Below are positions 1,948 to 28,963 of a DNA stretch of 64,000 nt, in pieces. The DNA lies in contig NZ_JAUETR010000001.1 in the NCBI RefSeq assembly GCF_032484785.1, positions 1,987,501-2,051,500 of the forward strand, read 5' to 3'. Origin of the DNA: Bradyrhizobium sp. SZCCHNS1050 (GTDB lineage: Bacteria > Pseudomonadota > Alphaproteobacteria > Rhizobiales > Xanthobacteraceae). Position 1 is the stretch's first letter, and every line of letters starts with the position of its first letter. The translations under genes and the position numbers were made by a program. The notes beneath the pieces were generated by a model. That model was not told the DNA's origin. It saw nothing but the letters and a program-made list of their open reading frames with translations, and did not search any database.

Positions 1948-3336
1948 TCAATGCGCTCCATCGCGGAGGGTATCCAGGCGACGCTGCAGGTCTAGACGAA
2001 GGTCGTAGCCGGGCTTGCCGAACCGGGCATTGCGCTCCGCGATGAAGTCACGCTGCGTTCCGCGCAGCTCGGCAGCGGCGCGGCCGCGGGAGGACTTCAA
2101 GCGCCGGGCATAGCTTTCGGAAATGCCGAGATCGAGCACCGAGAGCTGCGGGTCGGCGCAGATGACCTTCTCGACCTCGCGCGCGGCCGTGGCGCAATCG
2201 AACGACGGACCGCTTCGCTCTGACGGCGCGTTCAACGGACGCGGCGGCTCGGCGCCGAACTTCTTGATCTCGGCCAGCATGACGCGCCGGCCGGCGATGG
2301 CATTGTCGTTGCCGGGATCCAGCCGCAGCGCGGCCTCGTAGTCGGCCAGCGCCTTGGCGCGCTCGCCCATCTTCTTGTACAGCACCGCCCGGTTGTTGTA
2401 GGCGAGCGCGAAATTCGGATCGAGCCGCAGCGCGGCGTCGTAGTCGCTGAGCGCCGCGCCGAGCTCGCCCTTGAACTGATGGGAATCGCCGCGGTTGGTG
2501 AAGAAATTTGCCCGCTGCTCCATCCTGATCGCCTGATCATAATCGGCGATCGCCTTGTCGTACTCCTTCATGGCGGCGTAGGTGAGGCCACGATTGTCGT
2601 AATATTCCGACACCTTCGGATCGCGCCGGATCGCCTCATCGTCATCGGCCAGCGCCTTGTCCATCTGGCCGAGCTTCTTGTAGGCCGCGGCACGGTTGGT
2701 GAATGTGCGCGGCCGTTTCGGGTCGAGCCGGATCGCCTCGTCATAGTCGCGCACGGCCTTCTCGTTGTCGCCGCGCAGGTAGAAGGCGACGCCGCGGTCG
2801 GCAAAGGCCTGCGCGTAGTCGGGCTTCAGCCGGATCGCCTGGTCGTAGTCGGCCAGAGCGCGATCAAGACGGCGCTGCTCGGTATAGACAACGCCACGCA
2901 GCTCATAGGCTTCGGCGTCATTCGGATCGAGCGAGATCGCCATGCTCAGATCGGCCGCCGCCCTGCCGGCATCGCCACCGGCTTCGCGCATCAGGTCGCC
3001 ACGCAGCCGATAGGCGCGCGCATTCTTGCCGTCGAGCGCGATGGCACGGTCGAGGTCCTTCAGGGCCTGGGTCAGGCCGCCCGAGATACGCGCACGGGCA
3101 TCGGCGCGGGCAACCAAGGCGATGGATTGATCCTTCGGCGAACTCGATGCCTGCTCGATTGCGGTCGAGCAGGCGGTGATGAGCTCGGACGGGGGCGCCT
3201 TGCTGCCCAAAGCGCATTCGGGGTCCGCGGCGAATGCAGGCTGGGCCCCGAGGCCAAGGACAAGACCGGCTGCAAGACCCAGCGCGAGGTAGGATGAGCA
3301 GGATGAAATCGAACGAATGAAAGCGTGCATCGGCAT
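1948..3336 (-). CDS. Secreted TPR protein with LprI-like C-terminal module
   Basis: A 462-residue exported protein. Residues 1-36 form a signal peptide (hydrophobic LGLAAGLVLGLGAQPAFA, cleavage after AFA). Residues about 75-350 are a run of roughly eight tetratricopeptide repeats with the usual LDPxxAxAYxNRG and ALADYDxAI consensus. The last ~85 residues (FDCATAAREVEKVICADPQLSVLD..) match the cysteine-paired DUF1311/LprI-type module. Such modules occur in periplasmic proteins including lysozyme inhibitors, so a periplasmic scaffold role is likely but the actual job is unknown. It is followed downstream in the same orientation of the chromosome by prpE and preceded by a shorter paralogue, so this looks like a tandem duplication with repeat expansion. 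Confidence 0.85.
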   Translation of the reverse strand: MPMHAFIRSISSCSSYLALGLAAGLVLGLGAQPAFAADPECALGSKAPPSELITACSTAIEQASSSPKDQSIALVARADARARISGGLTQALKDLDRAIALDGKNARAYRLRGDLMREAGGDAGRAAADLSMAISLDPNDAEAYELRGVVYTEQRRLDRALADYDQAIRLKPDYAQAFADRGVAFYLRGDNEKAVRDYDEAIRLDPKRPRTFTNRAAAYKKLGQMDKALADDDEAIRRDPKVSEYYDNRGLTYAAMKEYDKAIADYDQAIRMEQRANFFTNRGDSHQFKGELGAALSDYDAALRLDPNFALAYNNRAVLYKKMGERAKALADYEAALRLDPGNDNAIAGRRVMLAEIKKFGAEPPRPLNAPSERSGPSFDCATAAREVEKVICADPQLSVLDLGISESYARRLKSSRGRAAAELRGTQRDFIAERNARFGKPGYDLRLDLQRRLDTLRDGAH

Positions 3337-11011: not shown

Positions 11012-12193
11012 TCAGAACGCGGCCGCCAGCTCCTTGGCGCCGGGCAGGCTGCTGAGCGAGTCCATCCTGGAATCCGTCACCGCAAGCAGCTTCGCCACGG
11101 TGTTGTGGCGAACGGCGACCGGATTGCGCTCGTAGCCGCCGCGCTGGAAGAAGTTGGCGGTCGGAACCTGATCGCGCATCTCGAGCGGCATCGTCACCAT
11201 GTCGAAGCCCGTGCCGTCGCCGGTGAGATTCATCATCTCGAGCTCGGCGGCCGAAAGCGGCCGCGTGTAGCCCTTGGCGCGTGCGAACAGCACCGAGGTC
11301 AAGAGCTTGTGGGTCTGCAGCATCGGCCCGACGTCGATGTCGAGCACCATCGCATGCATGGCCCAGCCTTGCGGCGTGTTGCCGATCTTCTCATGCGCCG
11401 ACCAGTCGTCCGGCACGGAGCGCGCGATCGCGACCATCTTCTTCAGGACCGCGAGCTTGTGCTCCATCGCGCCGCGTGCCGGGCCGGACGTCCGCGCCAC
11501 GCGTTCGCCGAGCAGGCGGATGAACAGCGGGCCCTGCTCGGCCAGCAGCTCGACGCTGTTGGTGGTCAAGAGCTGATTGTAGCCGATCGCGGTCGAGATC
11601 GCGCGGTTGCCCTTGAAGCCCGATTGCGAGTCGTGCTTGCCGTTGCCGCCGGTCTCGAAGGCATAGACGCGCACCGCCTGCTCGCGCGTCAGTCCCGACG
11701 CCGCGGCGAAGCGCCCATAGGCGCGTTTGAAATCGATGTCGTTGGCAGGGCGCTGCGGCGACCATTGGAAATGCTCCTGTGCCGCCTTCACGAGGTCGGC
11801 GACCACGGGGATGTACTTGCGCTCGCGCGGCTCGCCCTCAGGTTCCGGCTCGGGGTTCACCGGCCGCTTCGGCCCCGTGTAGACCGGCGGCTGCTCCAGC
11901 ACGTAGTCGTCGAGCCCGATCGGCTGGCGGTCGCGGCGCTTGGCGTTGCGGATGCGGCGCTTATCCGAGATCGCCTTCCAGTAGGCGCCCGCCTCCTGGT
12001 CGAACACCGCCCGCGCCTGCTGATATTCGGCGAGCCTGCGTTGGTACTCCGCGATCGCGGCGGGCGAGGCCATCTGGGCCAAGGCATCGCGCGGAGCTGC
12101 GACTGGCGCGGGTTCCACGGCCAGCAATGGCGGTGCGCCCGCGACCGCGCAGGCGAGAATCAGGACAAGCGTGCGAATCGGCTGATGAAGCAT
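11012..12193 (-). CDS. Exported protein of unknown function
   Basis: 393 residues. A signal peptide (TLVLILACAVAGAPPLLAVEP) is followed by a coiled-coil-prone charged stretch (AIAEYQRRLAEYQQARAVFDQ) and a proline-rich linker (RPVNPEPEPEGEPRE). The C-terminal half from about residue 150 (HFQWSPQRPANDIDFKRAYGRFAAASGLTREQAVRVYAFETGGNGKHDSQSG) has the look of a lysozyme-like or lytic-transglycosylase fold with a candidate catalytic Glu in FETGG; this is a guess. Start ATG 12193 is preceded by AAGGGCGG and avoids overlap with the Nudix gene. Confidence 0.72.
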   Translation of the reverse strand: MLHQPIRTLVLILACAVAGAPPLLAVEPAPVAAPRDALAQMASPAAIAEYQRRLAEYQQARAVFDQEAGAYWKAISDKRRIRNAKRRDRQPIGLDDYVLEQPPVYTGPKRPVNPEPEPEGEPRERKYIPVVADLVKAAQEHFQWSPQRPANDIDFKRAYGRFAAASGLTREQAVRVYAFETGGNGKHDSQSGFKGNRAISTAIGYNQLLTTNSVELLAEQGPLFIRLLGERVARTSGPARGAMEHKLAVLKKMVAIARSVPDDWSAHEKIGNTPQGWAMHAMVLDIDVGPMLQTHKLLTSVLFARAKGYTRPLSAAELEMMNLTGDGTGFDMVTMPLEMRDQVPTANFFQRGGYERNPVAVRHNTVAKLLAVTDSRMDSLSSLPGAKELAAAF

Positions 12194-12218
12194 GCCGCCC
12201 TTGTAGCCGAAACGGCGG

Positions 12219-12848
12219 CTACTTCCAGGCAAACACCGGCTGTTCCAGCTCATGCACCCGGGTGTCGCGGCCGGACAGCACCTCGCGGAACTGATAGATC
12301 AGCGCTGCGGTGGGCGCGTGAATGAGGCCCTCGCGGGCGTGAAAGCGGATCACGCGCCGCGTGCTCTCTGGGATCACGGTGAAGTCGAACGCGTCATCCG
12401 CCGTGATCGCATCCAGGCCGATCCGGTGCACCGAGGAGACCTCGTCCGGATTCGGTCGCAGCGTGCGGCCATCGCCCGCCCATACCACGACCGGGGTAAT
12501 CAGATAGCCCGACCGTGTCGGGTAGTCGTCGAGCAGGCCCAGCACCGCATCCGGCGCCAGGATCAGCCCGAGCTCCTCTGCGAGCTCGCGCAGGGCGGCC
12601 TCGACCGTGGTTTCGCCGGCGTCGCAGCGTCCGCCCGGCAGCGCCCATTGCCCGCCATGGCTGCGCAGCCCTGCGGCACGCAGAGTGAGCAGCAGCGCCG
12701 TGTTGCCGGTCTCGTGGTGGGGGGCCAGCGCGATCACCACCGCCGCGCGCTTCAGCGAGGCCGCCGCCGCAGTCGCCTCCAACCGCACGAAGCCCGCGCA
12801 GCAGCTTGCGATTTTCCGCCTGGTGGCATCGTCGAACGGCATCGGCAT
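12219..12848 (-). CDS. Nudix hydrolase, CoA-pyrophosphatase type
   Basis: 209 residues. The Nudix box GX5EX7REUXEEXGU is intact: it begins GGRCDAGE near residue 72 and ends RELAEELGL, the magnesium-binding site for hydrolysing nucleoside diphosphates linked to another moiety. The flanking [25 protein letters not shown] resembles the CoA pyrophosphatase (NudL-like) subfamily, so CoA or acyl-CoA may be the substrate. It reads divergently from the hotdog thioesterase gene, another CoA-related enzyme, 80 bases away. Confidence 0.88.
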
Positions 12849-12928
12849 GCAGCTTGACTACACCAGGCCGGCGACAGATGAAACGACCTCCAGGCCGGCT
12901 CGGGCCACAACGGGAAGGGTCTTCAGCG

Positions 12929-13351
12929 ATGACGAAATCGGCCGCGGCCAGGATGACGTCCGACGGCTGGGAGATCGTCGACACCTCCGGTTTCCTGCAT
13001 CTGATCGGCCCGCTGTGGCAGCGGGTCGTCGGCGGTGTCCACGAGTACGCCATCGTCACCGAGGACAAGCACCACAACCGCCGCGGCCTGGTCCAGGGCG
13101 GCGTGATCATGACGCTGGCCGACCGCAGTTGCGGCATGACGGCCCGCTACGCCGCAGGCAAGGAGCACATGGCGACGATCCAGTTCGACACGCATTTCGT
13201 CGAGTCCGGCAAGATCGGCGAGACCCTGGTGTCGCGGCCGCATGTGGTGCGGATCACCCGCAGCCTGGTGTTCATCACCACCGAGGTCACGGCCGGACCT
13301 CGCGTGATCGCGATGGCCTCGGGCGTGTTCAAGATCTTGAAGAGCGAATAG
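12929..13351 (+). CDS. PaaI-type hotdog thioesterase
   Basis: About 140 residues with the single hotdog fold of the PaaI/4HBT family, which hydrolyses acyl-CoA thioesters in the cytoplasm. The recognisable region is NRRGLVQGGVIMTLADRSCG (residues ~51-70), where Asp is the usual catalytic or base residue, followed by TIQFDTHFVESGKIGE. The start is ATG 12929 with GGGAAGGG upstream; ATG 12953 is also possible. A dispersed palindromic repeat begins 18 bases after the stop. Confidence 0.85.
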   Translation: MTKSAAARMTSDGWEIVDTSGFLHLIGPLWQRVVGGVHEYAIVTEDKHHNRRGLVQGGVIMTLADRSCGMTARYAAGKEHMATIQFDTHFVESGKIGETLVSRPHVVRITRSLVFITTEVTAGPRVIAMASGVFKILKSE

Positions 13352-13368
13352 GGGTCACTCGCTCCGCC

Positions 13369-13484
13369 GTCATCGCGAGGAGCGCAGCGACGAAGCAATC
13401 CAGGGTGGCGGAAAGGACTCTGGATTGCTTCCGCCTACGCCCCAAGGGCTTCGGCGGACACGTCGCTGCGCTCGCAATGACGCG
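13369..13484. repeat. Dispersed palindromic repeat, copy 2
   Basis: Same element as at 5305: it starts CGTCATCGCGAGGAGCGCAG, contains CGAAGCAATCCAGGG and CTCTGGATTGCTTC, and ends CTCGCAATGACGCG. It lies between two co-oriented genes, 58 bases before the aldo/keto reductase start. Confidence 0.85.
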
Positions 13485-13542
13485 TTGATGGGTTTATCGT
13501 CCTATCAAACCCATGCGCGCGTGTGGCAAGAATGAGGCATCA

Positions 13543-14553
13543 ATGAACTATCGCCAGCTCGGCCGTTCCGGCCTGAAAGTGTCGCCGATCTGCCTGGGCA
13601 CGATGATGTTCGGCGGTCCCACCGACGAGCCGGCATCCGCCCGCATCATCGCCAAAGCGCGCGACGCCGGCATCAACTTCATCGACACCGCGGATGCCTA
13701 CAACAAGGGCGTCTCGGAAGAGGTGGTCGGCCGCGCCATCGCGCGCGAGCGCGACCGCTGGATCGTCGCCACCAAGCTCGCCAACCCGATGGGCGACGAT
13801 CCCAACCGCGCCGGCCTGTCGCGGCGCTGGGTGCTGCAGGCCGCGGACGAAAGCCTGCGGCGGCTCGGCACCGGGCACATCGACATCTACTACCTGCACA
13901 AGGAAGATCACGCGACGCCGCTCGAGGAAACCGTGCGCGCGATCGGCGATCTCATCCGTGCCGGCAAGATCCGCTATTTCGGCGTCTCCAACTACCGCGC
14001 CTGGCGGCTCGCCGAGATCTGCAATCTCTGCGACACCATCGGCATCGACCGCCCTGTCGTCAGCCAGCCCTACTACAACGCGATGAACCGGATGCCCGAG
14101 GTCGAGCACCTGCCGGCCTGCGGCTATTACGGCCTCGGCGTCGTGCCCTACAGCCCGCTGGCGCGCGGCGTGCTCACCGGAAAATACAGCCCCGATGCGC
14201 CGCCGGACATGGACACCCGCGCCGGCCGCAACGATACGCGAATGATGCAGACCGAGTGGCGGCCCGAATCGTTGAAGCTGGCGCAGGAGATCAAGCGTCA
14301 CGCCGAGGCGAAGGGCTTCACGCCGGGACAGTTCGCCGTGTCCTGGGTGCTCAACTCCGCCTTCATCAGCTCCGTGATCGCGGGTCCGCGCACCGAGGCG
14401 CAATGGGACGACTACATCCGCGCGCTCGACTATCCCTTTGCCGCCGACGACGAGGCGCTGATCGACCGGCTGGTCGTGACCGGTCACGCCTCGACGCCCG
14501 GCTACAACGATCCGGCCTATCCGATCGAGGGCCGCAGGCCGCGGGTGGGCTAG
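13543..14553 (+). CDS. Aldo/keto reductase
   Basis: 336 residues, a (beta/alpha)8-barrel NADPH-dependent reductase of aldehydes or ketones. The active-site set is present: Asp in FIDTADAYNKG (~50), Tyr in the same segment (~55), Lys in VATKLANP (~85) and His in YYLHKED (~118). The NADP-binding end is SSVIAGPRTEAQWDDYI. MNYRQLGRSGLKVSPICLGTM is the standard family opening; ATG 13543 has GAGG five bases before. Substrate unknown. Confidence 0.92.
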   Translation: MNYRQLGRSGLKVSPICLGTMMFGGPTDEPASARIIAKARDAGINFIDTADAYNKGVSEEVVGRAIARERDRWIVATKLANPMGDDPNRAGLSRRWVLQAADESLRRLGTGHIDIYYLHKEDHATPLEETVRAIGDLIRAGKIRYFGVSNYRAWRLAEICNLCDTIGIDRPVVSQPYYNAMNRMPEVEHLPACGYYGLGVVPYSPLARGVLTGKYSPDAPPDMDTRAGRNDTRMMQTEWRPESLKLAQEIKRHAEAKGFTPGQFAVSWVLNSAFISSVIAGPRTEAQWDDYIRALDYPFAADDEALIDRLVVTGHASTPGYNDPAYPIEGRRPRVG

Positions 14554-21053: not shown

Positions 21054-21872
21054 ATGACGGAGATGGTCGGTCTGGAGGCGCTCGTCGCATCCATCGCACC
21101 GGGGCAATCGATCGCGATCCCGGTCGACCGTGCCGGCGTCTCGATGGCGGCGACGGCGGCCATGATCGAGGCCGGCCTCACCGGACTGCATCTCGTCTGC
21201 GTGCCGATATCAGGCCTCCAGGCCGATCTGCTGATCGGCGCCGGCGTGGCCGCGGTGGTGGAAACCAGTGCCGTCTCGCTCGGCGAGGCCGGCGGCGCAC
21301 CGCGCTTCGTCTCGGCCGTGCGCGACGGCAGCATCCGCCTGCGCGATGCCACCTGCCCTGCGATCCATGCCGGCCTGCTGGCCGGGCAGAAGGGCGTGCC
21401 GTTCATGCCGATCGCAGGCATCATCGGCAGCGATCTGCTGCAGGTCCGCCCCGATTGGAAGGTGATCGACAGTCCGGTCGGCGAGCCCGGCAAGGTGGTC
21501 GTGGTGCCGGCGATCACGCCCGACGTGGCGCTGTTTCATGCTCCCGAGGCCGACCGCTTCGGCAATGTCCGCATCGGTCGCTACCGCGAGCTGGCGACGA
21601 TGGCCTATGCGGCGAAGCGCACGCTGGTCACCGTCGAGCGCATCGTCGATCGCGATTTGATGGCAACCGAAGACTCGGCGGCCGGCGTGCTGCCGGCGCT
21701 GTATGTCGATGCCATCGCGGTGGCCGCGAACGGGGCCTGGCCGCTGCCGCTGTGGGATGAATACGAGACCGATGGCGCAGAGCTGGCGCGCTACGCCGCG
21801 ATGGCGCGCACCGACGAGGGCTTTCGCAGCTATCTCTCCGCCTTCCTGACCCGCTGCAAGGAGGTGGCATGA
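21054..21872 (+). CDS. CoA-transferase family, subunit A
   Basis: 272 residues of the family I CoA-transferase alpha subunit (GctA/IpdA-like). Recognisable parts are AAMIEAGLTGLHLVCVPISG, GKVVVVPAITPDVALFHAPEADRFGNVRIG and the C-terminal acidic end. Together with subunit B it should transfer CoA between carboxylic acids, or, as known for the IpdAB relatives, hydrolyse a cyclic CoA intermediate. Its start overlaps nothing; the stop overlaps the B start as ATGA, so the two are translationally coupled. Confidence 0.85.
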   Translation: MTEMVGLEALVASIAPGQSIAIPVDRAGVSMAATAAMIEAGLTGLHLVCVPISGLQADLLIGAGVAAVVETSAVSLGEAGGAPRFVSAVRDGSIRLRDATCPAIHAGLLAGQKGVPFMPIAGIIGSDLLQVRPDWKVIDSPVGEPGKVVVVPAITPDVALFHAPEADRFGNVRIGRYRELATMAYAAKRTLVTVERIVDRDLMATEDSAAGVLPALYVDAIAVAANGAWPLPLWDEYETDGAELARYAAMARTDEGFRSYLSAFLTRCKEVA

Positions 21873-22618
21873 CCATGCACGATGAACGCGCGCGCAAGGA
21901 GCTGCTGATCACCACCATCGCCGACCTGCTCGATGGCATCCGCCATGTCGCTGTCGGCGCCTCGTCGCCGATCCCGGCGGCCGGCGCGATGCTGCTGCGC
22001 GCACGGAACGCGCAAGCGGGCAAGCCGCCGGTCCGCATCTCGATCCTCGGCTCGAGCCGGCACAATTTCTTCACCAATGGTGGCGTCGAGCTGTTCGACT
22101 GCGCCGCGCAGGGCCGCGTCGACGCGTTCTTTCTCGGCGGCGGTCAGATCGACGGCAGCGGCAACATCAACCTGGTCGGCACCGGCGACTATCCGCGGAT
22201 GGATGTGCGCTGGCCGGGCTCGTTCGGCTCGGCCTATCTCTACCATCTCATTCCGCGGGTGATCCTGTTTCGCGAAGAGCATTCGCCGCGCGTGTTGGTG
22301 CCGAAGGTGGATTTCGTCAGCGCCGCCGCGACCACGCCGGAGGTGAAGCGGCGCGGCGGCCCGCAGGCGCTGCTGACCAATCTGGCGCTGTTCGATTTCG
22401 ACCGCGAGCGCGGCAGCTTCCGGCTGCGCTCGGTGCACCCGGGCTACTCCGCCGACGACGTGCGCGATCGCACCGGATTCGATTATACGGTGCCGGAGAT
22501 CGTGCCGCCCACGCCCGCGCCGGACCGGGCGACGGTCGAGCTGATCCGCGGCCGGATCCTCGACGAGCTCGCCGAATGCTATCCGGAATTCGCGCGCGCG
22601 ATGGCTGCAGCGGCTTAG
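21869..22618 (+). CDS. CoA-transferase family, subunit B
   Basis: 249 residues, beta-subunit partner of the preceding gene (ATGA overlap). GASSPIPAAGAMLLRARNA, GGVELFDCAAQGRVDAFFLGGGQIDGSGNINLVGTG and RVLVPKVDFVSAAA are typical. The glutamate of GGVELFD is a possible catalytic position, but I cannot align it with certainty to the acyl-enzyme Glu of GctB, and IpdB-type members lack that residue, so transferase versus hydrolase is unresolved. Confidence 0.85.
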   Translation: MTMHDERARKELLITTIADLLDGIRHVAVGASSPIPAAGAMLLRARNAQAGKPPVRISILGSSRHNFFTNGGVELFDCAAQGRVDAFFLGGGQIDGSGNINLVGTGDYPRMDVRWPGSFGSAYLYHLIPRVILFREEHSPRVLVPKVDFVSAAATTPEVKRRGGPQALLTNLALFDFDRERGSFRLRSVHPGYSADDVRDRTGFDYTVPEIVPPTPAPDRATVELIRGRILDELAECYPEFARAMAAAA

Positions 22619-22976: not shown

Positions 22977-23435
22977 TCAGTGACGTGCCGCCGCAGCACC
23001 GGCATAGACACCGGCAATGAAGGCCGCCGCCGCTCCGGCAACGGGCGCCAGCGCCGGAACGAACTTCGCGCCTGCCGCAGTATCGATGATCTGCTGCAGC
23101 GCATTGCCGTCCTTGGCCTGGGCGGACTCCTGGTAGATGCGCGTTGCGGCTGCTTCGATCTCGGCGAAGGTCGCCGTGCAGATCACCTTGTCGATGCCCT
23201 GATACGATACAGGTCCGGCTTTGCTGTCGTGAAGGTATTGATGCGTGAGTTGCAGGCCACCGCCGATGATCGCTCCTGCGGCTGCAGCGCCGAGCGCCAG
23301 CACGGCGGGCGCGATCTTCGGCCCGAATTCCTTCGCGCCCGCTGCTCCTGCTTCAGCGAACGCCAGAGCCGGCATGTGCAGCCAGGACACGGGAATGTTC
23401 GCCAGCGCGGCTCTGACGTCTTCATTTGCATTCAT
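22977..23435 (-). CDS. Gly/Ala-rich small protein of the radical SAM block
   Basis: 152 residues, unrecognised. Two Gly/Ala-rich hydrophobic segments are present, residues ~43-63 (AVLALGAAAAGAIIGGGLQL) and ~128-150 (ALAPVAGAAAAFIAGVYAGA), separated by a polar region with one cysteine (VICTATF). The composition resembles small membrane-active or bacteriocin-like peptides, but this is only a resemblance. ATG 23435 has GAGGAGAGTATCCC upstream. It follows the maturase gene in the same direction with a 112-base gap, so it may be a third substrate, an export or immunity factor, or unrelated. Confidence 0.65.
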   Translation of the reverse strand: MNANEDVRAALANIPVSWLHMPALAFAEAGAAGAKEFGPKIAPAVLALGAAAAGAIIGGGLQLTHQYLHDSKAGPVSYQGIDKVICTATFAEIEAAATRIYQESAQAKDGNALQQIIDTAAGAKFVPALAPVAGAAAAFIAGVYAGAAAARH

Positions 23436-23547
23436 GGGATACTCTCCTCGGTTGGGTTTGATTGGACCAGACGACTTTCGCCAGCGCCTTCCCGCGGCCG
23501 CAGGTACCGACGAACGACTCCGCTCAACCTGCGGAGGCGCCCTTCGG

Positions 23548-25020
23548 TCAGGCGGGCGCCGCGATACGGCGCAGGATTTGTTCGATCTCGTTGTGGTGGT
23601 GCATGACGCGTTGCACGACCCGCACGTGATCATCGGCACTGTTCGTTGCGTCCGCGCCTGCGTGGCAATGCGGGCATTCCGGCTCTCCCTGATAGAAGAA
23701 GTGCTTGCAGGACTCGCAGAGCAGCAGCTGGTCCAGCCTCGCCGCCGCGTCAGGCGCGAGATCCTGGAACTCGTCGCTCGCGTACACTTCCTGGCCGTAT
23801 CGGCGGCCGTGGGCGTCCTCGATCATGATGTCGAAGCAGCCATGGTCGAACGGCTGTCGTCCCGATGGCCTCGTCCGCTGCACGATCACCTCGCGCCAGC
23901 CGCGTTCGGCCAGCCGCAATACCCGGTAGTGGCAGAACGGATTGTTGCCAGGCCGTCCCGACAGCACGTGCGTGGTCCAACTGCACCCGGCGCGGCACAT
24001 CGGACCGTAGTAGCATTTGGCGCAGAACCCCCAGCGGCGCCCGCGGCTCTCGTCGAGATCGCGCATGAAACGCAGTTCGGCGCTGTCGTTCCAGATGTCG
24101 GTAAATGATCGATCGCGGATATTGCCGCCGACATAGGCGGCCGTGGGGAGCGACGGGCAGCCCTTGATGGCGCCGTCAGCCTCGATTCCCAGGCCAGCCC
24201 GTCCGGCCTGGCAGCCGCCGTAGTATTCGAATCGTCCGGAGGTACTGCGCCAAGCCGCTTCGTATGGGCCAAAATACCCGATGTTGTTACCGGGCATAAG
24301 CTGCAGGCCGCGATCGAGGCCCTCTTCGAACAGTGCAAACAGCTCCGGCATCAGCGCAGCGAGATCGAAGGGCTGCAGCAGCAAGGATGGAGCATCGGCC
24401 GCATTGCCCATGGGCACGGTGAGCTGAATCTGCCAGGCGGAGGCCCCGGCGTCGATGATCGTATCGAAAATGTCGCGCAGGCCGCCCAGGGTAAGACGAT
24501 TGACCTGCGAGTTGGCGGTCGCCATCAGCCCATGCTTTCGCGCGTTCCGGATCGCGGCCACCGCTTGGCCGTGGCTGCCCTTGATACCGCGGAGCCGATC
24601 ATGTGTAGCGGCCGGGCCGTCGATGGAAACGCCGACGGTCTTGAGTCCGGCGCGCGCGGCTGCTTCGATCTTCGCTTCCGTGAGTGCCCGGGCGCCGGTC
24701 TGCAGGCCGCAGACAATGCCGTTGCGAGTGATCTCCTCGACGAGGACCAGCCAATCGGGGCGGAGGTAAGCTTCGCCGCCGATCAGAACGATCTCCTTGG
24801 TGCCAGCGCGCGCAAGTTCGCCAATCAGAGCGATGCATTCCGCGGTGGTCAGCTCGTCATTGCGAGGTGCGCCGGCCCGGGACCCGCAATGGCTGCACTT
24901 CAGGTTGCAGAGGAGCGTGATCTCCCAGACCACATAGCGCGGTTGAGCGGTAGGCAAGCCGCCGGAAGGGATTGATCGGACCGGCATCTCGGTATCGGCG
25001 TGGGGTACACGAGAGAACAT
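23548..25020 (-). CDS. Radical SAM/SPASM peptide maturase with zinc-ribbon tail
   Basis: 490 residues. The radical SAM CX3CX2C motif is CNLKCSHC (Cys38, 42, 45), which binds the SAM-cleaving [4Fe-4S] cluster. A full seven-cysteine SPASM domain follows (Cys270, 288, 333, 336, 342, 346, 363, with CAKCYYGPMCRAGC as CX2CX5CX3C) for two auxiliary clusters; SPASM enzymes typically modify ribosomal peptides. Beyond it lies an extra ~110-residue tail with CESC..CPHC (Cys435, 438, 449, 452), a zinc-ribbon pattern, then a helix with MHHHNEIEQIL. The sequence resembles the maturases associated with GDL-motif/DUF1843 peptides, and two such proteins are encoded divergently 79 bases away. ATG 25020 lacks a clear Shine-Dalgarno; ATG 24987 is possible. 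Confidence 0.9.
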   Translation of the reverse strand: MFSRVPHADTEMPVRSIPSGGLPTAQPRYVVWEITLLCNLKCSHCGSRAGAPRNDELTTAECIALIGELARAGTKEIVLIGGEAYLRPDWLVLVEEITRNGIVCGLQTGARALTEAKIEAAARAGLKTVGVSIDGPAATHDRLRGIKGSHGQAVAAIRNARKHGLMATANSQVNRLTLGGLRDIFDTIIDAGASAWQIQLTVPMGNAADAPSLLLQPFDLAALMPELFALFEEGLDRGLQLMPGNNIGYFGPYEAAWRSTSGRFEYYGGCQAGRAGLGIEADGAIKGCPSLPTAAYVGGNIRDRSFTDIWNDSAELRFMRDLDESRGRRWGFCAKCYYGPMCRAGCSWTTHVLSGRPGNNPFCHYRVLRLAERGWREVIVQRTRPSGRQPFDHGCFDIMIEDAHGRRYGQEVYASDEFQDLAPDAAARLDQLLLCESCKHFFYQGEPECPHCHAGADATNSADDHVRVVQRVMHHHNEIEQILRRIAAPA

Positions 25021-25035
25021 GAAATTTGCCGCGAC

Positions 25036-25066
25036 ATCGTTGACGATTGGTATCGTAAAATACTAA
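25036..25066. promoter_or_regulatory. Divergent promoter/operator candidate
   Basis: In the 79-base gap between the maturase and the first DUF1843-like gene, ATCGT (25036), ACGAT (25043) and ATCGT (25052) form two overlapping inverted repeats. TTGACG at 25040 could be a rightward -35 element, with TACTAA at 25061 as a weak -10 (15-base spacing). The gap is strikingly AT-rich. Confidence 0.45.
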
Positions 25067-25099
25067 CCTTAGATTGTATAGAGGACGAGGGAGGCGAAT

Positions 25100-25561
25100 T
25101 TGGCGAAGGAAGGCGTTCCAGGCGGAGTGGTGCCTCTGTACGGCCTTGCGATCGGCAATGCGCTCGCAAGTGGCGGTATCACTCTGGACGAGTTGGTCAC
25201 ATTGCGCTCGCACGCGAAGGCGATCGTCGACGCTCAAGGCGATCTGGTTTCTGCGGTGAACGCGCTCGACGAGGAAATCGTCAAGCGCGGCGGACAGGCG
25301 GCCGCCAAGGGCGCGGCGCCTGCCGAGGTCGTGCCATCCGAACGCTTCACCGTGCAGATCACCGGCCTTCCGATCGAGCCACAGGCGAGACAGAGCATCG
25401 AGCAGGCCGTCAATAATGCGGTGAAGGCTGCCATTGCCGCTCACGATAGCGGCGGCGACCTGAAGATCACGGCGTTGTCTCAAATCCAATCGTTCGGGGG
25501 AACGCACGGCGGCGCCACTGCGGGTCTGATCGCCACGATCGATCTTCAGTCAGCGCCTTGA
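25100..25561 (+). CDS. DUF1843-like candidate precursor protein A
   Basis: 153 residues, no cysteines. The N-terminal VPLYGLAIGNALASGGITLDELVTLRSHAKAI (residues 11-42) matches the YGxAIxxA..GDL..M pattern of DUF1843 peptides, the known partners of this maturase type. It is followed by a helical stretch, a Lys-Arg-Gly-Gly site (62-65), an Ala/Pro linker and a second domain ending SQIQSFGGTHGGATAGLIATIDLQSAP. The start is TTG at 25100 with GAGGGAGGCGAA directly upstream. Its paralogue follows after 19 bases. I infer that the N-terminal part is a recognition leader; no modification site can be named. Confidence 0.75.
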   Translation: MAKEGVPGGVVPLYGLAIGNALASGGITLDELVTLRSHAKAIVDAQGDLVSAVNALDEEIVKRGGQAAAKGAAPAEVVPSERFTVQITGLPIEPQARQSIEQAVNNAVKAAIAAHDSGGDLKITALSQIQSFGGTHGGATAGLIATIDLQSAP

Positions 25562-25580
25562 AGGTCTGGAGGAGGACATC

Positions 25581-26051
25581 ATGACCGAGAAGAGTACAGC
25601 TGGCGGAATCGCATCCTTCGCCGGTGGAGCAATCATGGTCTATGGCGTTGCCATTGGCAACGCGTTGGCGGCGGCCGTCAAAGGGCCCGCATCCATCGAC
25701 GATCTGGTGTCGTTGCGCGACCATGCGCGCCAGATCGTCGGCGTCCAGGGTGATCTTGTCGCTGCGCTGGCCGCTTTGGACGCTGAGATTGCGAAGCGTG
25801 GAGGCGCCAAGGCGGCGCCGGCGCCGGAGATGGAGCGCTTCGTCGCTCAGATCGATGGCGGTCCGCTCTCCGGCCAGTTGAAGTCTGAGATCGAGCAAGC
25901 CATTCAGAAGGCGGTGACGGCTGAAATCGCAAAGCTCGATACGCGCGGCGACATGGTTGCGACGCCGCTGTCGCAGATCAAGGCGTTCGGAGCGGGACCT
26001 GGCTCCCACATTTACGGAGCTGTCTATCGACCGAAGCTGGATAATCCCTGA
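25581..26051 (+). CDS. DUF1843-like candidate precursor protein B
   Basis: 156 residues, clear paralogue of protein A over its whole length: MVYGVAIGNALAAAVKGPASIDDLVSLRDHAR.., QGDLVAALAALDAEIAKRGG, a linker, and a C-terminal half with KSEIEQAIQKAVTAEIAKLDTRGDM and PLSQIKAFGAGPGSHIYGAVYRPKLDNP. The Lys-Arg-Gly-Gly junction is at 72-75. The two tails differ most after SQI(Q/K), so the variable ends may be the parts that are modified or exposed. ATG 25581 has GGAGGAGGAC upstream, stronger than that of protein A. Confidence 0.75.
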   Translation: MTEKSTAGGIASFAGGAIMVYGVAIGNALAAAVKGPASIDDLVSLRDHARQIVGVQGDLVAALAALDAEIAKRGGAKAAPAPEMERFVAQIDGGPLSGQLKSEIEQAIQKAVTAEIAKLDTRGDMVATPLSQIKAFGAGPGSHIYGAVYRPKLDNP

Positions 26052-26145
26052 GTGCGGTCGAATGCCCGGCACACGTTCGGATCACGGCGATGTCCAGACC
26101 AAGCAAGCCGGGCGAGGCGAGAGCTAATCGAGAGGCGTTCAGGCG

Positions 26146-26574
26146 ATGTCCGATGCAGCATCCGTGAAGCCGAAGTCGGTGCCGATGTGCCCGAGTTCGC
26201 GCTGCGCCGACGGCAACACGCTGCTCGGCATCGTCAATGCCGAGGGCCGGATCGATTTCATTCCCGAGCGCTTCGAGGTCGACGCCGCCTTCGTCGCGAT
26301 CGCCCGGCAGGGACGTCCGCCGGAACAGCGCTTCCGCTTCTCGTCGCCGTGCCTCGCGCGCGGCTGCGGAAAGTGGGACGGTAAGCGCTGTGGCGTCGCC
26401 AAGATCCTGAACGAGCACGGGCTGGAGCTCTTGCCGAATGAGCGGACCGTGGCGCTGCCGCGGTGTTCGATCCGCGCGAACTGCCGTTGGCACGGCGACT
26501 ACGGCGATGCGATCTGCGCGGTCTGCGCCTGGGTGGTCACGGAAAGCGGCAATCGGCTCGAACCGCCGGCTTGA
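26146..26574 (+). CDS. Nine-cysteine protein of the radical SAM block
   Basis: 142 residues, not recognised. Cysteines at 15, 20, 69, 74, 82, 107, 113, 124 and 127 (SPCLARGCGKWDGKRCG, PRCSIRANCRWHG, ICAVCAWV) suggest a metal or iron-sulfur site; no signal peptide. By position it sits between the candidate precursors and the metacaspase, 94 bases after protein B. It could be an electron donor, a scaffold or a metal-sensing component; none is demonstrated. ATG 26146 has GAGAGGCG upstream. Confidence 0.65.
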   Translation: MSDAASVKPKSVPMCPSSRCADGNTLLGIVNAEGRIDFIPERFEVDAAFVAIARQGRPPEQRFRFSSPCLARGCGKWDGKRCGVAKILNEHGLELLPNERTVALPRCSIRANCRWHGDYGDAICAVCAWVVTESGNRLEPPA

Positions 26575-26606
26575 TGTTTGCGAGCCGAGACATCAGGGGG
26601 ACGGAA

Positions 26607-27485
26607 ATGGCCAAGGGCATTTCGCTGCATATCGGTCTCAATCGGCTGGATCCGAAGCACTATGCTGGGTGGGACGGCAAGCTGAACGCCTGTGAGAATG
26701 ATGCGCGCGCAATGGAGGCGATTGCGAAGACGGCGGGCTATCGGACCGGCATTCTGCTCAGCGAGCAGGCCACGCGCGGCGCCGTGACCGACATGCTGAC
26801 GATGGCCGCCCGCGACTTGAACAGCGGAGACATTCTGCTGCTGACCTATTCGGGCCACGGCAGCCAGGTTCCGGACCTCGATGGTGACGAGATCGACGCA
26901 CTCGATGAGACCTGGTGCCTCTATGACGGACAGATGATCGATGATGAACTCTATCGCGTGTACGGCGCGATCTCCGATGGTGTTCGTGTTCTGATTCTCT
27001 CCGATTCCTGCCATAGCGGCACTGTGGCCAAGGTGAGCTACTACGAGATGGCGCAGGCCGCCGGCTTCGCCGGGAATTTGGATATCGCCGTGGCCGGCAG
27101 GGCCGCGACGAAAGGGATCAGCTATGCGCCCAAGTTCTTGCCGCAGGATATCGCCCTTCGTACTTATGAGCAGAACCGCGCATTTTATGAAGCCATCGGC
27201 CGGGCCGCAAAGGGCGCGCCGGGTGCGAAGTCGAGCGATGTCGCCAAGGCCAGCATCCGTCTGATCTCGGGCTGCCAGGACAATCAGGTGTCATTCGATG
27301 GCGCCATCAACAGCGTCTTCACCGCGGCGCTGCTGCTGGTCTGGGCGAACGGTCAATTCAAGGGCAACTACAACGATTTCCACCTTCAGATTCAGCGCAA
27401 GATGCTGCCGACGCAATCGCCGAACCATTACAGGACCGGCAAGGAAGATCGTGAGTACGACAGCCAGCGCCCGTTCACGATCTAG
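26607..27485 (+). CDS. Metacaspase-like C14 cysteine peptidase
   Basis: 292 residues of the caspase/metacaspase clan. The catalytic dyad is visible: His84 in LLTYSGHGSQVPD and Cys135 in LILSDSCHSGT. The metacaspase-specific LDGDEIDALDETWCLYD segment (91-107) and the N-terminal ISLHIGLNRLDPKHYAGWDGKLNACENDA fit bacterial type I enzymes with a bare peptidase domain (no signal peptide, no partner domain). Metacaspases cleave after Arg or Lys, usually with calcium. It starts 32 bases after the cysteine-rich gene at ATG 26607 (GGGGGACGGAA before it) and is the last gene of the rightward set; it probably processes or is controlled by the products of the block. Confidence 0.88.
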   Translation: MAKGISLHIGLNRLDPKHYAGWDGKLNACENDARAMEAIAKTAGYRTGILLSEQATRGAVTDMLTMAARDLNSGDILLLTYSGHGSQVPDLDGDEIDALDETWCLYDGQMIDDELYRVYGAISDGVRVLILSDSCHSGTVAKVSYYEMAQAAGFAGNLDIAVAGRAATKGISYAPKFLPQDIALRTYEQNRAFYEAIGRAAKGAPGAKSSDVAKASIRLISGCQDNQVSFDGAINSVFTAALLLVWANGQFKGNYNDFHLQIQRKMLPTQSPNHYRTGKEDREYDSQRPFTI

Positions 27486-27490
27486 CTAGA

Positions 27491-28963
27491 TCACCGCCGT
27501 GATCCGCGCGTGATCACCTGCCCCGCACGCGCCTTCTGGTGCGTGCCCTGCCACCAGGTCAGCGCGCCATTGACGATGACGGCCTCGATGCCGGCGGCCG
27601 GCACGCAGGGGGCATCATAGGTCGCGCTGTCCCGGACGCTGGCGGCATCGAAGATCGTGATGTCGGCATGGTTGCCGACCGCGATCGTGCCGCGTCCCTC
27701 GACGCCGAAATTCCGCGCGGTCAGCCCGCTCATCTTCCACACCGCGGTCTCCAGCGAGAACAGCTCGAGCTCGCGGCAGTAGTAGCCGAGCACGCGCGGG
27801 AACGTGCCCCAGAGCCGCGGATGCGGACGCTCGCCGAACGGCAGCCCGTCGGAGCCGATCATGGTCGGCTCGAAGGCGAGGATGGTCTGCACGTCGGCCT
27901 CGTCCATCGCGAAGTAGATCGCCGACGCCGGCTGCAGCCGCTTGGCGGCTTCGAGCCGGTCGACGCCCCAGCCCGCGGCGATGTCGGCGAGATCCCGACC
28001 CGCCATTTCCGGATGGGGTCCGGAGGCCGCGACGACGACCTTGACCTGCAGCTTGGCCGGGTCGGTGTGCAGCATGGTCGACGAGGCGTTGTAGGGATAG
28101 CAGTCGAGTGCGACGCATTGGCAGCTCATCGCCTTCGTGATCAGCGGCAGCGTCTCCCTGGTGCGGCCGAAATTCGCTGGCCCCACCACCTTGTGATGCG
28201 AGATCACGACCTGGACGTCGAGCGCCTTGCCGATGGCAAAGCTCTCCTCCAGCGACTGGATCACCTCGTTCGCCTCGTTGCGCATATGCGTGGCATAGAC
28301 GCCGCCGCTGCCTGTGAGCGGACGGCACACCTCGATGATCTCCTCGGTCGGCGCCGCCTCCGCCGGCGGATAGAACGTCCCGGTCGAGACGCCGATGGCG
28401 CCGGCGTCGAGCGCCTCCTGCACATGCGCGCGCATCTCGGCGATCTCCACGTCCGTCGCGGCCCGGCCGAGGTCGCTCACGACCGACGCACGCAGCGCGG
28501 TGTGGCCGACCATGGGCGCCACGTTGACCGCCGCGGGCGCCGTGCGCAGCGCGGCGACGTAGTCGGCGAACGCGGCATACTCGACCACCTGTCCCTCGCT
28601 CGGCGATAGCAAGCCGAGCGGCATCGGCCGCGGCGAGCCCGGCTTCAGCGGCGCGATGCTGACGCCGCAATTGCCGGTCACGACGGAGGTCACGCCCTGC
28701 GAGACCTTGCAGGTCATGTCGGGATCGACCAGCACGGCGCTGTCGTCATGGGTGTGGGAGTCGATGAAGCCCGGAGCAACGATGAGGCCGGTGGCGTCGA
28801 TCTCCCGCCTGGCTCGCCGGCCGTCAAGCCCGCCGATGGCGACGATGCGGCCGTCCTTGATGCCGACATCCGCCTCGAAGCGTGGCGCACGCGTGCCGTC
28901 GATGACGGTGCCGCCGCGGATGATCAGGTCGAAGGACTCGGACGAAGGCTGGTTGTCGGTCAT
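27491..28963 (-). CDS. N-acyl-D-amino-acid deacylase family amidohydrolase
   Basis: 490 residues of the metal-dependent D-aminoacylase group, which removes the acyl chain from N-acyl-D-amino acids. Metal ligands are seen in PGFIDSHTHDDSAVL (residues ~60-75), and the family motif GSDGLPFGERPHPRLWGTFPRVLGYY lies near 365-390. The N-terminal IIRGGTVIDGTRAPRFEADVGIKDGRI and the C-terminal ITIFDAASVRDSATYDAP complete a urease-like barrel. It converges on the metacaspase gene, with a GATCACcgccGTGATC hairpin between the stops. Confidence 0.9.
   Translation of the reverse strand: MTDNQPSSESFDLIIRGGTVIDGTRAPRFEADVGIKDGRIVAIGGLDGRRARREIDATGLIVAPGFIDSHTHDDSAVLVDPDMTCKVSQGVTSVVTGNCGVSIAPLKPGSPRPMPLGLLSPSEGQVVEYAAFADYVAALRTAPAAVNVAPMVGHTALRASVVSDLGRAATDVEIAEMRAHVQEALDAGAIGVSTGTFYPPAEAAPTEEIIEVCRPLTGSGGVYATHMRNEANEVIQSLEESFAIGKALDVQVVISHHKVVGPANFGRTRETLPLITKAMSCQCVALDCYPYNASSTMLHTDPAKLQVKVVVAASGPHPEMAGRDLADIAAGWGVDRLEAAKRLQPASAIYFAMDEADVQTILAFEPTMIGSDGLPFGERPHPRLWGTFPRVLGYYCRELELFSLETAVWKMSGLTARNFGVEGRGTIAVGNHADITIFDAASVRDSATYDAPCVPAAGIEAVIVNGALTWWQGTHQKARAGQVITRGSRR

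Follow-up and report, generated by a model that had tools for sequence, protein, structure and literature searches.

What would a peptide-modifying radical enzyme and a caspase relative do side by side, and do the genes around them belong together at all? This question is raised by a locus at positions 22977-27485 of a 64,000-nucleotide stretch of Bradyrhizobium sp. SZCCHNS1050 (contig NZ_JAUETR010000001.1; host genome 7.6 Mb), hereafter the window. Six genes were found there: a radical S-adenosylmethionine (SAM)/SPASM maturase and a small gene, m154, on the minus strand, and two DUF1843 genes (dA and dB; their products and relatives are here called d proteins), a gene for a cysteine-rich protein (CYS) and a metacaspase on the plus strand. 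The original prediction, in which a maturase faces two paralogous YGxAI-type proteins followed by a nine-cysteine protein and a metacaspase, was borne out by Pfam, NCBIfam and the open reading frames (ORFs) for all five genes that it named. It missed the sixth gene, m154, within the span, and it overlooked the closeness of the maturase to spliceases and the two-domain build of the DUF1843 proteins. Several findings support its view of the genes as one set: a conserved gene order, the 5-32 base pairs (bp) that separate CYS from the metacaspase in four genomes, joint decay in a fifth genome and a domain fusion. As to function, we tentatively read the cassette, at somewhat less than even confidence, as a splicease-type protein-modification system extended by further partners.

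Conservation of the neighbourhood, which the original prediction had proposed looking for, was found: three further genomes of the order have the complete set, with its gene order unchanged and between one and three d genes. Four complete sets were counted, namely those of the window, of genome G353 (locus L133), of a Phreatobacter metagenome-assembled genome (MAG) and of a Pseudorhodoplanes MAG, after duplicates had been merged (L119/L135 with the MAG of L036, L120/L147 with the MAG of L037, and G546/G1182 with L115). In the other complete sets, m154 is the gene directly 3′ of the maturase; copies were present in L133, L115, L036 and the decayed locus L134. Contigs were scanned with an alignment of 36 maturases and the best 80 of 413 loci were kept, with flanks that vary up to 10 kb per side. 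Among these 80, CYS was present in three (L036, L037 and L115) and both metacaspase and m154 in two (L036 and L115); none of the three was detected within the available flanks of the other 77. A CYS-profile search of 391 family genomes added L133, which has three d genes, CYS, metacaspase, maturase and m154, and whose maturase start resembles that of P0016 (Pseudolabrys taiwanensis). When up to nine candidates per genome were scored with TIGR03913 in 149 genomes (the window's own and its relatives), no maturase comparable to the window's was detected beyond the window genome (next score 117 versus 482 bits), and the score was at most 102 bits in 88 genomes of the same genus.

Two incomplete loci were also detected. 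Maturase, d and CYS are present in L037, a locus of a Bradyrhizobiaceae MAG of 81% completeness; a metacaspase was detected neither near the locus nor elsewhere in the MAG, and m154 was not detected nearby. Two more radical SAM genes follow the L037 maturase (11859-13373(+) and 13357-14448(+)), the second of which matched the YydG peptide-epimerase model at 97 bits, under the cut-off of 300, and this variant may add an epimerisation step. L134 (9254-11208 in G286, a single-contig genome) is a decayed set with m154, CYS, a metacaspase split over two frames and only a C-terminal piece of the maturase. No d gene was found at L134, and the G286 genome contained no maturase relative at E up to 1e-60.

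The individual components are rare as well. Among 296 family genomes, four had a PF08898 match, the divergent d proteins of L036 and L037 escaping this Pfam model, and six had the metacaspase type (E up to 1e-30). For CYS, three overlapping samples gave homologues in 15 of 391 genomes of the family (E up to 1e-6), in 10 of 397 at the level of the order and in 7 of 398 at that of the phylum. Because the components are rare and the whole set nevertheless recurs in the same order, it is no chance neighbourhood. Its distribution is patchy: a CYS homologue was found in two of 27 genomes of the G353 genus (G353 included; one has the complete set) and, among 12 genomes of the family to which the Phreatobacter MAG belongs, only in that MAG.

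Domain architecture also argues that the set belongs together. Each d protein consists of a DUF1843 part ending in EIxxRGG, a linker, and a C-domain that extends from ERFVAQI to a glycine-rich tail; in a low-confidence structure model of dB, linker residues 73-97 are predicted coil between predicted helices 57-72 and 98-119. Both dA (34.1 bits) and dB (25.8 bits) exceed the PF08898 cut-off of 23.3, and the DUF1843 assignment of the d proteins of L036 (no Pfam match) and L037 (14.5 bits) rests on alignment. A profile of nine d proteins, with which 7998 candidates sharing most words were scored, identified 97 proteins, of which 92 were 137-170 and five 79-111 amino acids long; one cluster, 'unclassified Bradyrhizobium', was 94% identical to dB. 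The C-domain of the L036 d protein (2580-3047(-)) hit the Frankia ribosomal peptide family PF14407 at E 0.024, far under the cut-off and probably by chance. At L038, a 4.1-kb contig in which no CYS was found, two near-identical 63-residue peptides with DUF1843 only (2053-2244(+) and 2364-2555(+)) lie beside the maturase, probably representing the unfused state of d.

The C-domain also occurs on its own next to CYS. CYS, in which seven cysteines are invariant over 30 aligned rows, had no match in Pfam or NCBIfam; its structure model is confident (pLDDT 86.6), and a fold search of this model against PDB returned no clear match and no convincing structural relative. We examined 21 CYS loci outside the complete, partial and decayed sets (L136-L146 and L161-L170; G085:C9 and G582 were not examined at length). 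In four of them the gene upstream of CYS codes for a stand-alone relative of the C-domain, with profile E values of 1.4e-5 (L136), 7e-7 (L161), 1.7e-7 (L162) and 2.3e-6 (L163, whose CYS copy has one in-frame stop); no other ORF of the 21 loci matched this profile at E up to 1. Comparison of the C-domain of d with the stand-alone group by hhalign gave 97.1% (E 4.8e-11), and the protein search yielded a C-domain-only protein of 82 amino acids (P0283). Elsewhere the gene upstream of CYS codes for a protein of a different kind, 100-115 amino acids long (nine loci), or has no clear kind (L142, L167 and L170). In the remaining five, all in the window's genus (L137, L138, L139, L141 and L145, of which L137 and L138 are nearly one locus), a double-glycine leader-type peptide lies 55-191 bp upstream, called by eye, with sub-threshold hits to bacteriocin models. 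Such peptides were located at L137:10480-10695(-), L139:10514-10702(-), L141:10267-10506(-) and in L145, and L139 has several further ones within 20 kb. Judged from these neighbourhoods, CYS and the C-domain are a module of their own. The d proteins therefore fuse a maturase-partner domain to a CYS-partner domain, which argues that both modules work together.

The maturase matched Radical_SAM (80.9 bits) and SPASM (36.6 bits) in Pfam, both above cut-off, and in alignment keeps the radical SAM CxxxCxxC motif (C38, C42, C45) and the SPASM cysteines. Its best NCBIfam model was TIGR03913 (482.1 bits, cut-off 591.75), followed by TIGR04103 (435.3 bits, cut-off 725) and a third family at 149 bits; the close copy in L133 scored 478.7 bits with TIGR03913. 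The suggested pairing of a GDL-type maturase with DUF1843 thus holds for the DUF1843 neighbours and fails for formal membership in the GDL family (482 bits against a cut-off of 592). A TIGR04103 enzyme from Calothrix is the mirror image, with 808 bits for TIGR04103 (above cut-off), 414 for TIGR03913 and 158 for the next model, and the window maturase is 50% identical to it over 377 amino acids. The Calothrix enzyme lies in a spliceotide-type set (L180:849-5041(-)) with four Nif11-type precursors that have MYG/HYG cores (QPMYGIVI, YQAMYGVVV, IIAMYGVIL, AVAHYGVVM and IAMYGAVI); one precursor, scored against the Nif11 model, reached 30.6 bits, slightly below the cut-off of 32.3. A supported group (98/96) in the maturase tree of 36 rows unites the window enzyme with L115, L133 and four proteins from the protein search. 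Canonical GDL maturases, joined by L038, form an 18-row group (89/96, below the star threshold), L036 and L037 have no resolved place, and the single TIGR04103 row and the outgroup are on long branches.

A potential site of action is the YG motif of the DUF1843 part (YGLAI in dA, YGVAI in dB). Among 106 d-type sequences (9 from loci and 97 from the protein search, some of them duplicates), Tyr was present in 105 and Gly in 104. The domain is missing from the row that has neither, so that YG is kept in 104 of the 105 with the domain. The preceding residue is Pro in 41, Leu in 30, Val in 25, Ala in 6 and Glu in 3. Around YG, dA reads VVPLYGLAIG, and its stretch GGVVPLYGLAIG resembles the PlpXY test tag GGPIRPLYGLPI. 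A second YG (HIYGAVY) was observed close to the C-terminus of dB; YG past residue 80 occurs in just 5 of the 106 rows. Tyramine excision at YG would be the best-supported chemistry, because the maturase is half identical to an enzyme encoded beside precursors with XYG cores and because YG is almost invariant.

The metacaspase, a single-domain enzyme, matched PF00656 (76.5 bits, above cut-off) and aligned end to end (1-292 of 292, E 3.7e-89) with PDB 3bij (GSU0716). All four complete sets keep the dyad His84 (SGHG) and Cys135 (SDSCHSG). In the alignment with the yeast metacaspase, Cys29 and Asp32 fall on GCINDA, and Ser82 and Asp133 are conserved; these four are candidate residues of an S1 pocket for Arg or Lys, the basic-residue pocket of metacaspases. 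The enzyme probably cuts the d linker at a conserved Arg. Arg73 of dB is a better guess for the cut site than Arg86, which is kept in 101 of the 106 d-type rows, because Arg86 also occurs in stand-alone C-domains without a metacaspase.

The data show the genes, their order and recurrence, the fusion and the conserved residues. Every enzymatic step, the binding of metal, the direction in which d is processed and what m154 does are inferred from them, as is the make-and-cut peptide pathway of the original prediction. The maturase would act at YG in the DUF1843 part of d, splicing being likelier than another change. CYS would be a metal-binding (Fe-S or Zn) protein that holds or modifies the C-domain of d. 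The metacaspase would cut the flexible interdomain linker after the conserved Arg (EIxxR|GG), freeing the modified N-terminal part from the CYS-bound C-domain, and m154, with its two hydrophobic stretches, would act at the membrane. A more specific version of the splicease reading is unlikely as a whole. It holds that a splicease-like enzyme gives two-domain DUF1843 proteins a backbone ketoamide before a caspase-type protease cuts them between the domains, and that CYS, as a protein family not recognised before, is a general maturation partner which Alphaproteobacteria combine with three or more unrelated kinds of small proteins (C-domain proteins, the 100-115 amino acid family and double-glycine peptides).

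Several observations weigh against the splicease reading. The maturase is under both curated cut-offs, TIGR03913 and TIGR04103. PlpX works with PlpY, and no such partner was recognised: the cassette proteins gave no PlpY-, PqqD- or RRE-type match in Pfam or NCBIfam, a divergent RRE not having been searched by structure. DUF1843 is N-terminal here, unlike the classical leader-core order. In the available account of PlpXY, YG alone is insufficient, since 2 of 16 tags inserted in FtsZ were modified, and the dA-like tag GGPIRPLYGLPI was unmodified at the FtsZ site tested. Tyr in canonical GDL loci is followed by Ala as often as by Gly (LYA 49, PYG 29, LYG 15, from 100 regular-expression hits in 62 of 76 loci, a few of them by chance), so YG may reflect fold rather than chemistry. 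The same metacaspase type occurs outside the set: of the six family genomes that have it, four carry it in sets (one decayed) and two with other neighbours (L190 and L191). At L191 (6916-9018) it follows a larger, weakly matching caspase-like protein, interrupted after ~222 residues, and no maturase, d or CYS match was found nearby. Arg86-Phe87 is kept in the two stand-alone C-domains of L161 and L162, which have no metacaspase nearby, so conservation of Arg alone is no proof of a cut site; L037 keeps the RGG motif in a MAG that yielded no metacaspase. Finally, CYS needs neither metacaspase nor maturase, because no match to these, or to m154, was detected in the available stretch of the 21 outside CYS loci.

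The closest competitor, which we regard as doubtful, is a GDL-type radical SAM system that modifies DUF1843 in a different way without splicing, with the metacaspase as maturation protease and YG as a structural turn opening the first helix. TIGR03913 being the best model, the occurrence of both YA and YG in canonical GDL substrates, contrary to a strict XYG rule, and a supported tree group that excludes the single TIGR04103 row (on a long branch and without a resolved place) all speak for it. However, TIGR04103 is nearly as close, half of the residues are shared with an enzyme that lies beside Nif11-type precursors with MYG cores, and YG is almost invariant among d-type sequences. It is very improbable that a GDL maturase/DUF1843 pair works independently and that metacaspase and CYS merely hitch-hike with it on mobile DNA. 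The patchy occurrence (CYS homologues in 2 of 27 and 1 of 12 genomes, centre genome included), the 77 maturase loci without CYS and metacaspase and a transposase-type ORF (PF01527, 39.9 bits) ~1 kb beyond the L115 metacaspase would fit such a history. The same order with near-zero gaps in four genomes and the fusion of maturase-partner and CYS-partner domains do not, and the window set has no mobile-element genes at its borders, its neighbours being a CoA-transferase pair (21054-22618) on one side and an amidohydrolase (27491-28963) on the other.

It is also improbable that the set is a self-killing or signalling switch, in which the metacaspase is the effector, a maturase-made ketoamide d peptide inhibits the protease and CYS is a redox or metal sensor that releases the metacaspase. 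Metacaspases are thought to need Arg or Lys at P1, and the residues before YG are mostly Pro, Leu or Val instead; moreover, L037 has maturase, d and CYS, with no metacaspase found. Weak matches of the metacaspase to the PADLOC caspase model (28 bits, E 2.6e-7) and the NCBIfam EACC1-caspase model (26 bits, cut-off 140) favour a switch, as does the protease inhibition attributed to spliced beta-residues in PMC10373908 (with reference to Scott et al. 2022). According to PMC7159879, bacterial conflict systems draw on both caspase-like proteases and radical SAM/SPASM peptide-processing genes, the latter in other subsets, but the peptide-modifying and caspase variants are described there as mutually exclusive. 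Within the set, to which scanning for defence families was confined, none of MoxR, vWA and VMAP could be recognised.

The layout of the set is summarised in Table 1. Maturase and dA diverge from a spacer of low G+C content that is likely the promoter region, although a simple sigma-70 scan listed no site within it. The metacaspase start is best placed 32 bp 3′ of CYS, as a longer GTG frame from 26463 overlaps CYS. No match was found for m154 in Pfam or NCBIfam. The G+C content of the set (0.633) is slightly lower than that of neighbouring genes (0.69), and the two tRNA genes of the window are both ~20 kb or more away.

Table 1. Features of the gene set and predicted sites, in window coordinates (aa, amino acids)
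Feature	Position	Strand	Description	Basis
m154	22977..23435	-	152 aa, Ala/Gly-rich, two hydrophobic stretches, invariant PVSWLH motif	5-copy alignment
Radical SAM/SPASM maturase	23548..25020	-	490 aa	Pfam, NCBIfam, alignment, tree
Divergent spacer maturase/dA	25021..25099		79 bp, GC 0.43 versus 0.66 in the window	
dA	25100..25561	+	DUF1843 domain and C-domain, 153 aa, TTG start	Pfam, alignments
Predicted splice site in dA	Tyr codon 25139-25141	+	Tyr14-Gly15	alignments
dA equivalent of dB Arg73	codon 25286-25288	+	Arg63	alignment
dB	25581..26051	+	dA paralogue, DUF1843 and C-domain, 156 aa	Pfam, alignments, low-confidence structure model
Predicted splice site in dB	Tyr codon 25641-25643	+	Tyr21-Gly22	alignments
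Candidate metacaspase cut site, dB Arg73	25797..25799	+	Arg73 of EIxxRGG, end of last DUF1843 helix; Arg in 96/106 rows, 5 gaps	
CYS	26146..26574	+	142 aa, nine cysteines	alignment, neighbourhoods
Metacaspase	26607..27485	+	292 aa, ATG start	Pfam, 3bij alignment

Comparison with known systems shows what is familiar here and what is not. With spliceases (PlpXY; we take TIGR04103 as the PlpX family) the set shares the sequence identity noted above and an XYG motif in the putative substrate; it differs in having no Nif11/nitrile-hydratase leader, no PlpY or RRE seen, an N-terminal motif and a maturase below the TIGR04103 cut-off. With GDL/DUF1843 systems it shares a DUF1843 partner beside a maturase of the same subfamily and the C-terminal CxxC...CxxC ribbon (C435, C438, C449 and C452 in the window maturase). 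It differs in a TIGR03913 score below cut-off, in the fusion of DUF1843 to a new C-domain, in the added CYS, metacaspase and m154, and in lacking Y-X(10)-GDL, which is replaced by Y-X(10)-GGI in dA and by a longer insert with IDDL in dB, a later QGDL being kept. To our knowledge, no function has been published for DUF1843/GDL systems. DUF1843 is called uncharacterised in the available text of PMC10994174 and PMC12114271; the former reports paralogous DUF1843 copies within one operon, as here, and the latter a Chromobacterium DUF1843/GDL-type operon that is upregulated with quorum sensing.

The metacaspase resembles GSU0716, labelled an uncharacterized protein in PDB, over its full length and in the SGHG and SDSCHSG motifs, and differs in being the last gene of a maturase set. 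Like the C39/PCAT leader proteases of ribosomally synthesised and post-translationally modified peptides (RiPPs), it is a cysteine protease proposed to trim a modified precursor, but it belongs to another clan and lacks a transporter domain. The main text of a review of bacterial RiPP leader proteases does not mention caspase, C14 or clan CD (PMC10885120). None of the papers listed by our searches, which excluded most subscription journals, described a maturase/DUF1843/metacaspase set. The nearest published case found was the conflict systems of PMC7159879 (FxSxx/VMAP/EACC1), where, in the available text, FxSxx precursors, a SPASM enzyme and a protease share one neighbourhood and caspases occur in sister systems. 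In those systems a zincin-like metallopeptidase cuts the peptide, and their core genes were not recognised in the window set.

If the proposed reading is true, it would establish CYS as a new family of partners of small proteins, with a predicted fold for which the PDB search gave no clear counterpart, and the metacaspase would be, among the papers listed by our searches, the first bacterial caspase relative found tied to a GDL- or splicease-type maturase. The cassette offers a concrete predicted chemistry, the loss of 135 Da at one Tyr-Gly, together with a protease that has a predicted cut site.

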